Positions 3,077 through 58,091 of a stretch of 58,897 nt of DNA are shown here, in pieces. A program made the position numbers and the translations under genes. Each line of letters starts with the position of its first letter. The stretch's first letter is position 1. The notes below the pieces were generated by a model that worked only from the letters and a program-made list of their open reading frames with translations, ran no database searches and was not told where the DNA came from. Origin of the DNA: Bacteroidales bacterium (GTDB lineage: Bacteria > Bacteroidota > Bacteroidia > Bacteroidales > UBA932); NCBI GenBank assembly GCA_017398335.1, contig JAFQGK010000054.1, positions 1 to 58,897 of the forward strand. The letters run 5' to 3'.

Positions 3077-3154
3077 CTGAAAATTTTATGGATTCCGTCA
3101 TGTTTATCCTGTTCTGCCGGAATCAGGAACTCTGTTGACGTTGCTGCTGTATAA

Positions 3155-3292
3155 GATTGCCGGTCAAGCCGGCAATGACGTCATCCCCGACTTTTCACCC
3201 TCATCCTTAACCGTCGTTCTCTGTCATCCCCGACCGTAGCTTTACGTTATCCCTGACCGTAGCTTTACGTCATCCCCGACCTGATCGGGGAT
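3155..3292. repeat. TTGCCGG palindrome and GTCATCCCCGACC repeat cluster
   Basis: The unit at 3155-3180 (GATTGCCGGTCAAGCCGGCA plus ATGACG) is a near-perfect palindrome and recurs as an array at 8041-8186. It is followed by several copies of TCATCCCCGACC, including two tandem units ending in GTAGCTTTACG, and closes with the palindrome CCCCGACCTGATCGGGG (3273-3289). Such modules are short interspersed repeats of the REP type. Confidence 0.75.
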
Positions 3293-3429: not shown

Positions 3430-3490
3430 ACCCCTAAGCACGTCACCCCTAAGCACGGCGCAATAGAGATAAATTTACGTGCTCAGCGGT
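3430..3490. repeat. CCTAAGCACG-type palindromic element, copy 4, with doubled left arm
   Basis: The left arm CCCCTAAGCACG occurs twice in tandem (3431-3442 and 3446-3457) and can pair with CGTGCTCAGCGG at 3478-3489. The doubling also occurs in copy 5. Confidence 0.6.
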
Positions 3491-7881: not shown

Positions 7882-7928
7882 ACTTCTAATGTAAACATGT
7901 TTTCTGCCGGAAATCGCCTTTCATGTAA

Positions 7929-8004
7929 CCCCTAAGCACGACAACCCTAAGCACGCAGATATCAAGTACTTGTCAGATTTTTGGTATTTACGTGCGCGAA
8001 GGTT
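7929..8004. repeat. CCTAAGCACG-type palindromic element, copy 5, with doubled left arm
   Basis: CCCCTAAGCACG (7929-7940) is followed by a second arm CCCTAAGCACG (7945-7955). The right arm is decayed to CGTGC (7991-7995) and GGTT (8001-8004). The 20-odd bases before it (CGCCTTTCATGTAAC) nearly match the bases before copy 1 at about 113-134. Confidence 0.6.
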
Positions 8005-8040
8005 ATAGTCATGCATGCCTGACACCATGTCATCCACACA

Positions 8041-8212
8041 GATTGCCGGTCAAGCCGGCAATGACGTTGCACCATAGAGATTGCCGGTCAAGCCGGCAAT
8101 GACGAATGGCCAAGCAGGCCATGACGAATGGTCAAGCCGGCAATGACGTTGCACCACAGAGTTTGCCGGTCAAGCAGGCCATGACGTCATCCCCGACCTG
8201 ATCGGGGATCTC
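8041..8212. repeat. array of five TTGCCGGTCAAGCCGGCAA-type palindromes
   Basis: Units lie at 8041-8066, 8079-8104, 8105-8126, 8127-8148 and 8161-8186, each ending ATGACG. The first two are identical; the third and the fifth change the core to AAGCAGGCC. The array ends with TCATCCCCGACC and the palindrome CCCCGACCTGATCGGGG. The units are nearly self-complementary and lack unique spacers, so this is not a CRISPR. Confidence 0.8.
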
Positions 8213-21846: not shown

Positions 21847-23844
21847 ATGGCAACAAACGGAAAAATTGGAGTTACAACCGAGAATATATTCCCGGTGATC
21901 AAGAAGTTTCTTTATTCGGACCATGAGATCTTTCTGAGAGAGCTTGTGGCAAATGCTGTGGACGCTACCCAGAAGATGAAGGCTCTGGCAGCGTCTGGAG
22001 AATATAAGGCAGAGTTGGAGGATCTTGCTGTCAGGATAGAACTCGATGAAGCTGCCAGGACCTTGAAAATCATTGATAACGGCATAGGTATGACCGAGGA
22101 GGAGGTTGACAGGTATATCAACCAGATTGCCTTCTCGTCAGCCGGTGAGTTCCTTGAGAAATACAAGGATCAGCTCAGCAGCATTATCGGTCATTTCGGA
22201 CTTGGTTTCTATTCAGCTTTCATGGTCGCTGAGAAGGTGACTATCGAGACTCTTTCATGGAAGGAAGGTGCAAAGGCGGTGAAATGGACCTGCGACGGTT
22301 CTCCTGAGTACGAGATGTCTGAATGTGACAAGTCTGACAGAGGAACAGTCATCACTCTTTACATTGCTGAAGATGAGAAGGAGTATGCTGAAAGGGGACG
22401 TATCCAGAACCTTCTGAATAAATACTGCAAGTTCATGCCGGTGCCTGTGATTTTCGGCAAGCAGCAGGAATGGAAGGATGGAAAATATGTGGATACGGAC
22501 AAGGATAACGTGATCAATAAGGTCGAGCCACTCTGGACAAGGATGCCGTCAGACCTCAAGGATGAGGACTATAACGAGTTCTACAGGGCTCTGTATCCTA
22601 TGGCGGAAGAGCCTTTGTTCCATATTCATCTGAACGTGGACTATCCGTTCAATCTTACCGGTATCCTATATTTCCCTAAGATCAGGAACAATGTAGAGAT
22701 CCAGCGTAACAAGATCCAGCTTTACTGCAACCAGATGTTCGTTACGGATTCAGTTGACAATATCGTTCCGGACTTCCTCACTTTGCTCCATGGAGTGATA
22801 GACTCTCCGGATATCCCTCTGAATGTGTCCAGAAGCTATCTTCAGAGTGATTCAAATGTAAAGAAGATTTCTACCTACATCACAAAGAAGGTGGCTGACC
22901 GTCTGGACGAGATCTTCAGGAACGAGCGTCAGCAGCTTGAGGAGAAATGGGACAATCTTAAGCTTTTCATCGAGTACGGAATGCTTTCGGACGAGAAGTT
23001 CTGTGACAGGGCCATGAAGTTTGCTCTGCTCAAGAATGTGGACGGCAAGTATTTCAGCATCGAGGATTACAGAAAGGCGATAGAAGGGGAGCAGACAGAC
23101 AAGGACAAGAAGACAGTCTTCCTTTATGCGAGAGATGCAGATGCTCAGTATTCGTTCATCGAGGCGGCAAGGTCCAAAGGATATGACGTTCTGATAATGG
23201 ACTGCCAGCTTGACAGCCATTTCGTGAATCTGCTTGAGTCAAAGTTGGAGAATACCCGTTTCGCACGTGTTGATTCAGACAGCATTGATAACCTTATACC
23301 TAAGGAGGATAAGATCCGTCCGGAACTTTCGGAGGCAGATCAGGAAGACCTTTCAGTAATCTTCAAGTCTGTTCTTCCTAAGGAGAACGAGTACTATGTG
23401 CAGGCAGATAACCTTGGTGAGGATGCAGCTCCTATTCTTATCACTCAGAGCGAGTTCATGCGTCGATATCGCGAGATGTCTGCCATGGGCGGAGGTATGA
23501 ATTTCTATGGAGAGATGCCTTCGATGTACAACATCACAGTCAATATGCAGAATCCTCTGGTAGCAAAGGTAATGGCTTCAAAGGCTGCTGAGGTGGCTCC
23601 CGCTCAGGTGATTCCGGATGCTGCTTCAGATGCGTCAGAGGATGTGAAGAGGACTGTGACAGAGGCAAAGGAAACTGCTGCAGCTTCTCATAAGGCTGAT
23701 CTTGAGGCATTTGCAGGTGATAACGAGATCCTTAAGCAGATAACTGACCTTGCGCTTCTTGCAAACGGTATGCTTAAGGGCAAGGAACTCAGCGACTTTA
23801 TCGCACGCAGTGCCAAGGTTGTCGAGGATGCGTATCTTAAATAG
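21847..23844 (+). CDS. htpG: molecular chaperone HtpG (Hsp90)
   Basis: The 665-residue protein has the Hsp90 ATP-binding (Bergerat) motifs: RELVANAVDATQKM, IDNGIGMTEEEVD and IIGHFGLGFYSAFMV, then the middle domain with RNNVEIQRNKIQLYCNQMFVTD and LNVSRSYLQSD. The region near residue 570-600 (AAEVAPAQVIPDAASDASED) is a low-complexity linker before the C-terminal dimerisation domain. It is an ATP-driven chaperone of the cytoplasm. A large cruciform follows immediately. Confidence 0.95.
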   Translation: MATNGKIGVTTENIFPVIKKFLYSDHEIFLRELVANAVDATQKMKALAASGEYKAELEDLAVRIELDEAARTLKIIDNGIGMTEEEVDRYINQIAFSSAGEFLEKYKDQLSSIIGHFGLGFYSAFMVAEKVTIETLSWKEGAKAVKWTCDGSPEYEMSECDKSDRGTVITLYIAEDEKEYAERGRIQNLLNKYCKFMPVPVIFGKQQEWKDGKYVDTDKDNVINKVEPLWTRMPSDLKDEDYNEFYRALYPMAEEPLFHIHLNVDYPFNLTGILYFPKIRNNVEIQRNKIQLYCNQMFVTDSVDNIVPDFLTLLHGVIDSPDIPLNVSRSYLQSDSNVKKISTYITKKVADRLDEIFRNERQQLEEKWDNLKLFIEYGMLSDEKFCDRAMKFALLKNVDGKYFSIEDYRKAIEGEQTDKDKKTVFLYARDADAQYSFIEAARSKGYDVLIMDCQLDSHFVNLLESKLENTRFARVDSDSIDNLIPKEDKIRPELSEADQEDLSVIFKSVLPKENEYYVQADNLGEDAAPILITQSEFMRRYREMSAMGGGMNFYGEMPSMYNITVNMQNPLVAKVMASKAAEVAPAQVIPDAASDASEDVKRTVTEAKETAAASHKADLEAFAGDNEILKQITDLALLANGMLKGKELSDFIARSAKVVEDAYLK

Positions 23845-23845
23845 A

Positions 23846-23938
23846 ATATGTCCGGTAGAATTCCGGTGACCCCTGTCTGCCTATGGCAGACACCCCCTAG
23901 CCGGGGGTGGCATGTCACCTATATTCTACCGGACATAT
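23846..23938. repeat. 93-bp three-stem palindrome (terminator region of htpG)
   Basis: Outer arms 23846-23861 and 23923-23938 are a perfect 16-bp inverted repeat (ATATGTCCGGTAGAAT). GGTGAC (23865-23870) pairs with GTCACC (23914-23919). Inside lie two hairpins: TGTCTGCC/GGCAGACA (23874-23881, 23885-23892) and CCCCC/GGGGG around TAGCC (23893-23907). The inner 55 bases have the same plan as the insert in argC (37116-37169). It could form a cruciform and probably ends htpG transcription. Confidence 0.85.
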
Positions 23939-36719: not shown

Positions 36720-37835
36720 TTAGAATGCCGAAGGCTTCAGACGAAGTCCTGTGTCCTCCGGGAGACCGAACATAAGGTTCATATTCTGAACTGCCTGACC
36801 TGCAGCACCTTTTACCAGGTTGTCGATGCACGAAGCTATATGCACATATCCGTCGTGCAGTTCGACATGTACCAGACCCTTGTTTGTGTTGACCACCTCT
36901 TTCATGGATATGCCCTCTGTGCTGTGGAAGACAAACGGAGATTCAGCGTAATAATCCTCGAACAGCTTCCTGTAATCCTCTTCTGTCATACCCTCGGCTG
37001 CCCTGGTATATACGCTCGCAAAAATACCTCTTGCAAAATCTCCCCTCAGCGGAACGAAATTCACTTTAAACTCTACACCTTGTCCGTCAGGAGTAAGGTT
37101 TGTCTGGTTGATGGAGTTGGCATGCCACCCCCGGCTAGGGGGTGCCGGCGCGAGCCGGCGGGGGCCAACGGAATCAATAGACAAACCGTATACCTTCTGA
37201 AGATTCTGCTTGATCTCCGCAAGGTGCTGATGGGTAAACAGTTTATAAATGGAAATATTGTCGGTGCGATAGCTGAAATGTGTGGTCTCTCCTGGCTTCT
37301 TGCCGGCTCCTGTAGAGCCTGTGATGGCTGTCACGTGGATTTCGTCCTGAATCAGTCCGGCTGCTGCAAGAGGAAGTGTAGCAAGCTGGATGGCTGTCGC
37401 GAAGCAGCCCGGATTTGCCACGTCATGAGCCTTGCGTACAGCTTCTCGGGCACTTTCACACAAACCATAGACGAAATTTCTGCCGGCGTAGTCTCCTTCA
37501 AGACGGAAATCGTTTCCCAGGTCTATGATCCTGCATTCCGGCTTGATGTCGTGGGTATCGACGAACTGACGCGAAATGCCGTGACCCAAGCACAGGAAGA
37601 TTACATCCGGATCGTTAAGATCCTTGCCGAAGCAAAGATCTGTTTCTCCGATGAGGTCTCTGTGGACGGATGCGACCGGCGTACCCTCCGACGAAGTCGT
37701 CGTCGCAGCGACGATCTCCACATCCGGGTGATTCAGCAGAATCCTGAACAGCTCGCCTCCGGTGTATCCCGTACCTCCGGCAATGGCCACTTTTATTTTT
37801 TTATTATCAACATTCATAAACAATTCTTTAGCCAT
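36720..37835 (-). CDS. argC: N-acyl-gamma-glutamyl-phosphate reductase with an in-frame palindromic insert
   Basis: The 371-residue protein has VAIAGGTGYTGGELFRILLNHPDVEI, split as GGTGYTGGEL, and HDVANPGCFATAIQL with the active-site Cys, SYRTDNISIYKLFTHQHL, and GLRLKPSAF at the end. Bacteroides ArgC is about 322 residues; this one is longer. Part of the excess is an 18-codon insert between the HQHLAEIKQNL helix and NFVPLRGDF (residues encoded at 37116-37169, VGPRRLAP...WHAN), which is a palindromic element with a twin near 23865. The insert is in frame and the catalytic parts are intact. The start at 37835 or 37817 is possible. Confidence 0.9.
   Translation of the reverse strand: MAKELFMNVDNKKIKVAIAGGTGYTGGELFRILLNHPDVEIVAATTTSSEGTPVASVHRDLIGETDLCFGKDLNDPDVIFLCLGHGISRQFVDTHDIKPECRIIDLGNDFRLEGDYAGRNFVYGLCESAREAVRKAHDVANPGCFATAIQLATLPLAAAGLIQDEIHVTAITGSTGAGKKPGETTHFSYRTDNISIYKLFTHQHLAEIKQNLQKVYGLSIDSVGPRRLAPAPPSRGWHANSINQTNLTPDGQGVEFKVNFVPLRGDFARGIFASVYTRAAEGMTEEDYRKLFEDYYAESPFVFHSTEGISMKEVVNTNKGLVHVELHDGYVHIASCIDNLVKGAAGQAVQNMNLMFGLPEDTGLRLKPSAF
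37116..37169. repeat. 54-bp palindromic element inserted in argC
   Basis: The element is closed by GTTGGC/GCCAAC (37116-37121, 37164-37169) and contains, read on the argC strand, a hairpin GCCGGC-TCGC-GCCGGC then CCCCC-TAGCC-GGGGG and TGGCAT. It is 54 bases, a multiple of three. The inner plan equals the unit at 23865-23919 downstream of htpG, where the outer and first stems have different but still paired sequence. It resembles the Rickettsia palindromic elements (RPE) that insert into genes in frame, though the sequence is different. Confidence 0.85.
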
Positions 37836-57780: not shown

Positions 57781-57853
57781 GATTCGTTAGCTCAGTAGGT
57801 AGAGCACAACACTTTTAATGTTGGGGTCTTGGGTTCGAGCCCCAAACGAATCA
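57781..57853 (+). tRNA. tRNA-Lys (anticodon UUU)
   Basis: Acceptor GATTCGT/ACGAATC, D stem GCTC/GAGC, anticodon stem CAACA/TGTTG with loop CTTTTAA (anticodon TTT), and T arm TTGGG-TTCGAGC-CCCAA all pair. The discriminator is A and CCA is not encoded. Confidence 0.98.
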
Positions 57854-57875
57854 CAAGACAAGTTCTTTTAATATT

Positions 57876-57948
57876 GCTTCCCTAGCTCAGTTGGTAGAGC
57901 ACGACACTCTTAATGTTGGGGTCCAGGGTTCGAGCCCCTGGGGGAGCA
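57876..57948 (+). tRNA. tRNA-Lys (anticodon CUU), copy 1
   Basis: Acceptor GCTTCCC/GGGGAGC (one G-T pair), anticodon stem CGACA/TGTTG with loop CTCTTAA (anticodon CTT), and T arm CAGGG-TTCGAGC-CCCTG. The discriminator is A, followed by CAA, so CCA is not encoded. Confidence 0.98.
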
Positions 57949-57983
57949 CAAAGGCGCAAGCCCCAAAATACATACGAAGCAAT

Positions 57984-58056
57984 GCTTCCCTAGCTCAGTT
58001 GGTAGAGCACGACACTCTTAATGTTGGGGTCCAGGGTTCGAGCCCCTGGGGGAGCA
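57984..58056 (+). tRNA. tRNA-Lys (anticodon CUU), copy 2
   Basis: The 73 bases are identical to the copy at 57876-57948. Here the discriminator A is followed by CCA (58057-58059), unlike in the two other copies. This gene is the one nearest to the integrase and so the likely integration target. Confidence 0.98.
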
Positions 58057-58091
58057 CCAGGACAGTTTGATAGAGTCCAATAAAGTATGGC

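Follow-up and report, generated by a model that had tools for sequence, protein, structure and literature searches.

In the available parts of the published description, Rickettsia palindromic elements (RPE) are small palindromic elements of 105-146 bp with terminal inverted repeats, which also occur in frame inside conserved protein genes and are tolerated there (PMC2229807). REP hairpins are found near the 3' ends of genes, mostly between convergent or unidirectional genes (PMC3733652, in part). Long inverted repeats inside protein genes, with both arms coding, occur in the mitochondria of Nematomorpha; the accessible sections of that report do not mention a repeated mobile tip for them (PMC6649704). 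Finally, in template-switch (quasipalindrome) mutation, fold-back copying makes or mends perfect stems and inverts loops, much as we propose for the element treated here, but no repeated mobile tip figures in the accessible sections, and neither "mobile" nor "transpos" appears in the main text (PMC8794818).

The element reported here has a conserved tip of about 50 nt, made of two hairpins, on a long outer inverted repeat. Small, mobile double-hairpin elements occur in organelle DNA, and the terminal hairpins of parvoviruses have a long stem with two small hairpins at the tip, prime their own synthesis and invert the tip between flip and flop. To our knowledge, stems copied from the locus are not known for the organelle elements, and we know of no mobile element that inserts by fold-back synthesis copying its target. 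The likeness to parvoviruses is an analogy of working only; the present element is a dispersed chromosomal repeat.

Like the RPE, the element lies in frame within conserved genes (argC, murB and prmC). It differs from them in that its long stems vary by locus and mirror host DNA, with terminal repeats shared between copies in one lineage only. A preliminary description of the argC copy had ascribed to it the behaviour of the Rickettsia elements. This holds for an in-frame, dispersed palindrome but not for a fixed 54-nt module with terminal repeats of its own. In encoding no protein and being shorter than 200 bp (91 nt in argC, 93 nt after htpG and a 107-nt insert at trkA), the element is like a MITE, but its terminal inverted repeats are not common to the copies except in that one lineage. 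With REP/RAYT systems it shares the position of a hairpin at gene 3' ends and the presence of Y1 genes in the same genomes. However, REPs are 20-40 bp long without target-copied arms. The GTAG tag at the 5' foot of the hairpin was not seen by eye in the consensus of 72 distinct tips; on the 3' side of the conserved hairpin there is a GTGG.

Copies in the Window

The window is the whole stretch of 58,897 nt that was analysed, contig C50 of a Bacteroidales genome of 2.2 Mb in 73 contigs. It contains two copies of the element (Table 1). The preliminary description had placed two units of one plan, 54 and 55 bases long, in argC and after htpG; both are present at the positions claimed, and NCBIfam confirms both gene names. 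The window has exactly two occurrences of the 19-mer CACCCCCTAGCCGGGGGTG, where shuffles give an expectation of 0.00, by which chance similarity of the two units is rejected. The longest inverted pair in the window is a pair of 35-nt arms common to both units. Each unit also extends outward into long locus-specific arms that pair within their own copy. In Rfam, only tRNAs score above gathering in the window and nothing at the argC copy comes near threshold, so the element is rejected as a member of an Rfam family.

Table 1. Coordinates of the two copies and their host or neighbouring genes in the window.
Feature	Position	Strand	Basis
argC, 371 aa, host gene of the insertion	36720..37835	-	NCBIfam TIGR01850
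Whole argC hairpin, arms and tip, in frame	37097..37187	-	Sequence; absent in empty allele G016; diverged ortholog in G021
5' outer arm of argC copy (coding strand), locus-specific	37170..37187	-	Sequence; pairs with 37097-37115
argC tip: two-hairpin core, inner stem GTTGGC/GCCAAC	37116..37169	-	Sequence, genome search, shuffle test
Conserved hairpin and tail CACCCCCTAGCCGGGGGTGGCATG	37121..37144	-	Exact match
3' outer arm of argC copy (coding strand), locus-specific	37097..37115	-	Sequence
htpG, upstream neighbour	21847..23844	+	NCBIfam NF003555
Whole hairpin directly after the htpG stop codon	23846..23938	+	Inverted-repeat search; G322 ortholog with compensated arms
Left outer arm of htpG copy	23846..23864	+	Pairs with 23920-23938; tip-less G193 has a sequence resembling the G322 ortholog's left arm
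Tip of htpG copy	23865..23919	+	Sequence, genome search
Right outer arm of htpG copy	23920..23938	+	Inverted-repeat search

The NCBIfam match to argC is interrupted at the insertion, and its best stretch covers residues 13-215. Between the same anchors, ArgC has 41 residues here and 5 in the empty allele of G016, which is about 36 extra. The earlier figure of 18 added residues falls short because it overlooked the two outer arms, which belong to the insert. That description had proposed aligning ArgC of relatives. Among 27 sequences aligned from 30 loci, 20 have no insert, 2 carry it, 1 is truncated and 4 have unrelated longer loops. The orthologous copy in G021 has arms that differ from those of the window copy yet match each other, and its tip is read in a different frame (APPSRGW in one ortholog, LPLAGGG in the other). 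Therefore, what is conserved in the tip is the nucleotides and not the residues. In other species, the same loops of argC (L166, L176) and murB (L193, L194) hold other repeats, with CHPERSEG or SHFERK-like peptides, so those loops take insertions repeatedly.

The window has further repeats. A cluster of 38-nt direct repeats AGATTGCCGGTCAAGCCGGCAATGACG, at 3154-3191 and 8040-8197, represents another intergenic palindromic repeat family. Short repeats ACCCCTAAGCACG lie at several intergenic places (119-234, 3430-3457 and 7913-7955). Three consecutive tRNA-Lys genes at 57781-58059 include two that are identical over a 75-nt repeat unit (CTT anticodon).

Distribution of the Tip

In a search of the genome with a 24-mer that allowed up to 3 mismatches, 6 copies of the tip were found, none with more than 1; a 19-mer matches at 2 further, weaker places, which have 2 and 3 mismatches. 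The preliminary description had proposed searching this genome and close relatives for the inner hairpin, and the copies found speak against a chance resemblance of the two units. At up to 2 mismatches, the tip is present in 8 of 61 genomes, this one included, and all 8 belong to one genus; it was found in none of 196 genomes from other genera of the order, and among 198 genomes of the order only in this one. Within the genus, 41 of 300 genomes match at up to 3 mismatches, of which a few single 3-mismatch matches may be chance, and one genome has up to 29 places. An exact scan of genome contigs matched at least 115 stretches. The 80 titles among the matches listed are of assemblies named as Bacteroidales, Bacteroidia or Bacteroidaceae, and many of these come from the guts of ruminants. 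Viral contigs gave no exact 22-mer of the tip, and plasmids and phages no match to its consensus, on which grounds carriage of the tip by phage or plasmid is rejected. Since all these tip searches were by pattern only, diverged copies are missed.

A Common Tip on Locus-Specific Arms

We collected 119 distinct copies with full flanks. An inner stem was recognisable in 113, and these were tested; the other 6, with a tip stem below 4 pairs, were left out of the arm, mismatch, mirror, hairpin-1 and edge analyses. From 72 distinct tips of 48-60 nt, the consensus of the core is GACCCCCG, a variable hairpin and CACCCCCTAGCCGGGGGTGGCATGTC. Three otherwise typical hairpins (L031, L035 and L141) have a much longer first hairpin in the tip.

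The arms behave differently from the tip. Scored for pairing, the left and right arms of one copy average 16.9, versus 5.7 with the arms of other copies. Of the 113 copies, 97 score no lower than the 99th percentile of the cross pairs, and 94 have no better partner than their own arm; the percentiles of the cross pairs are raised, here and in the second tip family below, because orthologous copies stayed among them. The arms are thus inverted repeats mostly unique to the locus, and the tip is common to the copies. The exception is a lineage of GC-rich contigs (18 of the 113 copies) with short arms common to its copies. It supplies 12 of the 15 weakest arm scores, the other three being L122, L045 and L048. 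Seventeen loci of this lineage were dropped by name from the arm-mismatch, gene-end-mirror and edge counts. Among the 95 copies outside it, TTCC stands directly left of the core in 60, TACA or TCCA directly right in 55, and both edges are present in only 51.

One alternative is that the whole hairpin moves, arms included, as a classical miniature element and that the arms diverge later under selection for pairing. The shared arms of the one lineage would suit this, as would an insert of about 150 bp between tyrS and a gene that we take to be rbfA. It is 97-98% identical in G000, G026 and G322 (L250, L251, L254) despite diverged flanks, which in 90-base windows are 82-91% identical upstream and 58-89% further downstream. 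Its edges are sharp and lie near the stop and start codons, and the near identity suggests either exchange between species or strong constraint. Against movement of the whole hairpin, tips within single genomes are alike and their arms mostly unrelated; L117 and L140, both at trkA, have unrelated arms with flanks 84-86% identical; and the arms match host flanks, as described below. We consider this course very improbable.

Gene Context

The copies tend to lie at the ends of genes. Of the 119, 31 are between convergent genes and 1 between divergent genes (P=1.5e-8 for convergent versus divergent), 25 and 10 are between genes of one direction, 2 are at contig edges and 50 are inside or overlap a frame. 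Many of these 50 are doubtful; context was taken from greedy open frames, and many of the "inside" calls made in GC-rich contigs are probably false. Among the coding insertions with NCBIfam names are those in argC, murB, prmC (two loci scanned), hemW and a shikimate kinase, the last a match below the curated cut-off in a gene cut by the end of the locus. The earlier claim of a dispersed palindromic element that enters a coding gene in frame thus extends from argC to other conserved genes.

This setting invites the alternative that the tip enters the loop of a hairpin already in place, in most cases an intrinsic terminator, and that the arms are the old terminator stems of the host. Many copies do stand directly after stop codons and between convergent genes. 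By eye, several intergenic arms look like A-tract/T-tract terminators, some with a T run, and G193 has a short hairpin at the htpG site. However, stop codons and coding 3' ends lie within arms, as does the start codon of the following gene at trkA, and copies sit inside argC, murB and prmC. Empty sister alleles with no hairpin are seen at two sites: there is no room for one in the tip-less trkA allele of G270 or in the 8 tyrS alleles with overlapping stop and start. Taken together, we find the terminator origin quite improbable.

A related alternative is a selected regulatory RNA or terminator module that is exchanged between species at fixed gene ends, with mobility secondary. Besides the location after stop codons, it can point to strongly conserved pairing: across 92 copies, 1871 of the 2097 arm pairs are Watson-Crick. 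It does not account for the copies inside coding genes, the patchy presence among genomes or the presence of both orientations at one locus (the L018 group). Nor is G.U in excess on the transcript strand. For copies whose neighbouring genes run in one direction, the wobble count is 10 on that strand versus 21 on the other, and RNA selection on the transcript as the sole cause of arm pairing is rejected accordingly. We regard such a module as the most improbable of the alternatives. In the same 92 copies, A.C mismatches outnumber G.T relative to tip orientation (71 vs 34, P=0.0004), independent of gene direction. This excess may come from strand-biased damage or a misaligned internal loop.

Filled and Empty Alleles

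For the origin of the arms, the clearest case is trkA, where the empty allele of G270 runs from the trkA stop codon through four bases to the start of the next gene, presumably an ABC-F gene. Aligned over 33 columns, the left arm of L140 agrees with it in 31, with 1 mismatch and 1 gap, and takes in both the trkA stop codon and the start codon of the following gene. The right arm, when reverse-complemented, agrees with this stretch in 24 of 29 columns (score 17, 0/3000 random); as it stands, the right arm gives P=0.029. After the 107-nt insert, the intact start of the next gene follows again. About 12 nt of host sequence are present as a direct repeat, and a separate host stretch of about 28 nt as an inverted one. 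The comparison of the two alleles shows the left arm to be old host DNA and the right arm its inverted copy. This is the only clean pair of filled and empty alleles, and its flanks are 79% and 88% identical; therefore, insertion is not seen at strain level. The preliminary description had proposed a check for target duplications, and by eye no constant short duplication was seen.

Weaker support for a host origin of the arms comes from alignments at htpG, tyrS and murB. Of 30 genomes at htpG, only this one and G322 have the element, and their arms are compensated. The left arm of G322 is found in the tip-less allele of G193 (score 22, 0/3000 random), which has that arm with only a short remnant and may be a pre-insertion site or a deletion scar. 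At tyrS, the left arm of the second-family copy in G261 is found in tip-less G007 (score 16, 0/3000 random), and this allele, like that of G193, could be a deletion scar. The right arm as it stands also scores in these tip-less alleles (P=0.019 at htpG, P=0.005 at tyrS). At murB, the left arms of three filled species match tip-less G007 (P=0.010, 0.034 and 0.010). The reverse complements of the right arms do not match that allele (P=0.35-0.69), and the right arm of L192 as it stands gives P=0.039. Among 30 genomes at tyrS-rbfA, 5 have this tip, 4 have the second tip family and 8 have the overlapping stop and start without a spacer. By eye, the left arm of G160 is mostly missing from the G032 allele. 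In G160 at this site (L268), a further tip-less inverted repeat adjoins the element and is perhaps an older hairpin that lost its tip.

Mirroring of host sequence was also examined across the set, for copies called other than "inside" and for genes at a distance of up to 45 nt. For 91 gene ends, the score against the opposite flank averages 7.13 versus 6.26 against other flanks (P=2.7e-6). At or above the 95th percentile are 24 ends (5.0 expected), and 6 are at or above the 99th (1.1 expected). The average effect is modest and the rows are not fully independent. The mirrored host features are gene ends, stop codons and, once, a start codon.

Change of the Arms and Orientation of the Tip

The claim that pairing is kept while sequence drifts is borne out among orthologs, whose arms change in step. 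Compensated arms are found at htpG (G000/G322), at argC (G000/G021) and in L111/L140, where 13 of 19 positions are the same and all 6 transitions are matched in the other arm. In L001/L015, the arms are kept or changed in step. The tip may turn around as well: between L054 and L109 it is inverted inside conserved arms, with flanks 97-99% identical. At tyrS, L053 has a new left arm and an old right arm, and L126 combines that new left arm with a right arm that matches it.

These cases bear on a further alternative, in which the tip is inserted armless. The stems would be built and corrected later by ordinary template-switch mutations acting between imperfect inverted repeats, whether or not an RNA hairpin is selected for. 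Such mutations are known to produce perfect stems, restore pairing and turn loops around (PMC8794818, in part), L053 and L126 fit stepwise rewriting, and the mismatches have no wobble bias towards the transcript strand. Copies with weak arms, which may be the intermediates, are few outside the shared-arm lineage, however (the three named above), and at trkA one event explains the tip, the inverted copy and the direct repeat together. We consider armless insertion rather unlikely.

The variable hairpin 1 has a similarity of 0.556 within genomes (178 pairs) versus 0.291 between them (2903 pairs), the pairs not being independent. Spread of the tips inside individual genomes would give this pattern.

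A Second Tip Family

A 19-mer of the TGAAAACTAAATCCCTCCC type matches 26 of 200 genomes of the genus at up to 2 mismatches, some perhaps by chance. It marks a second family, AAAACTAAATCCCTCCC ... GGCGGCCACGGTTTT, also with locus-specific arms (L252, L255, L257, L266 and L310-L339), and with one copy in this genome (G000:C10:69156). The loci examined include 24 copies with a full tip, some of them orthologous. Their arms score 19.0 with their own partner versus 7.1 across copies, and 11 of 24 reach the cross 99th percentile. The two tips were compared for relatedness only by eye. The two families have the tyrS-rbfA insertion site in common. Since the second has the same plan, the plan is not bound to one tip sequence.

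Candidate Enzyme

At E 0.001, Y1_Tnp matches are present in 17 of 17 genomes with the element and 10 of 17 tip-less genomes (Fisher P=0.007); at the curated cut-off, the counts are 15 and 9 of 17 (P=0.057). These statistics are uncorrected for descent, and one tip-less comparison genome, G008, has a single 3-mismatch match. In REP systems the repeat flanks the RAYT gene. Here, no tip was found by pattern beside Y1 genes at any of 30 loci, up to about 1.5 kb on each side, and a RAYT gene flanked by this tip as its repeat is rejected on that basis; additional Y1 matches came without a locus. When the flanks of 27 of the 30 were read by eye (3 had no frame), other hairpins were seen at several. 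As candidates for the enzyme, RAYT-type Y1/HUH transposases are weak.

Proposed Mechanism and Meaning

We think it probable that this is a family of non-autonomous palindromic mobile elements that insert by fold-back copying of the target. The mobile part would be the foldable tip of about 50 nt, often edged by TTCC and TCCA/TACA. On insertion, a growing DNA strand would reach the tip or be joined to it. The complementary ends of the tip would then fold back, and the polymerase would copy the strand just made for tens of bases before returning to the host template slightly upstream. The product would be host sequence, tip and inverted host sequence, together with a short stretch duplicated directly. 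Subsequent template switching within the hairpin, possibly with selection, would keep the arms matched and flip the tip. The wider reading is more tentative, and we would put it a little short of even: a new class of mobile DNA in one genus, with at least two tip families, whose self-priming tips fold back on the target, copy it and so build their own long stem.

As far as the open-licence PMC literature shows, stems copied from the target of a mobile element appear to be new. Repeats inside genes are usually read as fixed modules with their own stems, whereas here the stem appears to be copied from the target, and this suggests that insertion proceeds through fold-back synthesis. The compensatory change inside coding genes is not explained by selection on the protein. 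The element family offers many natural examples of template-switch copying in bacteria, and with it the origin of long perfect stems becomes directly testable.
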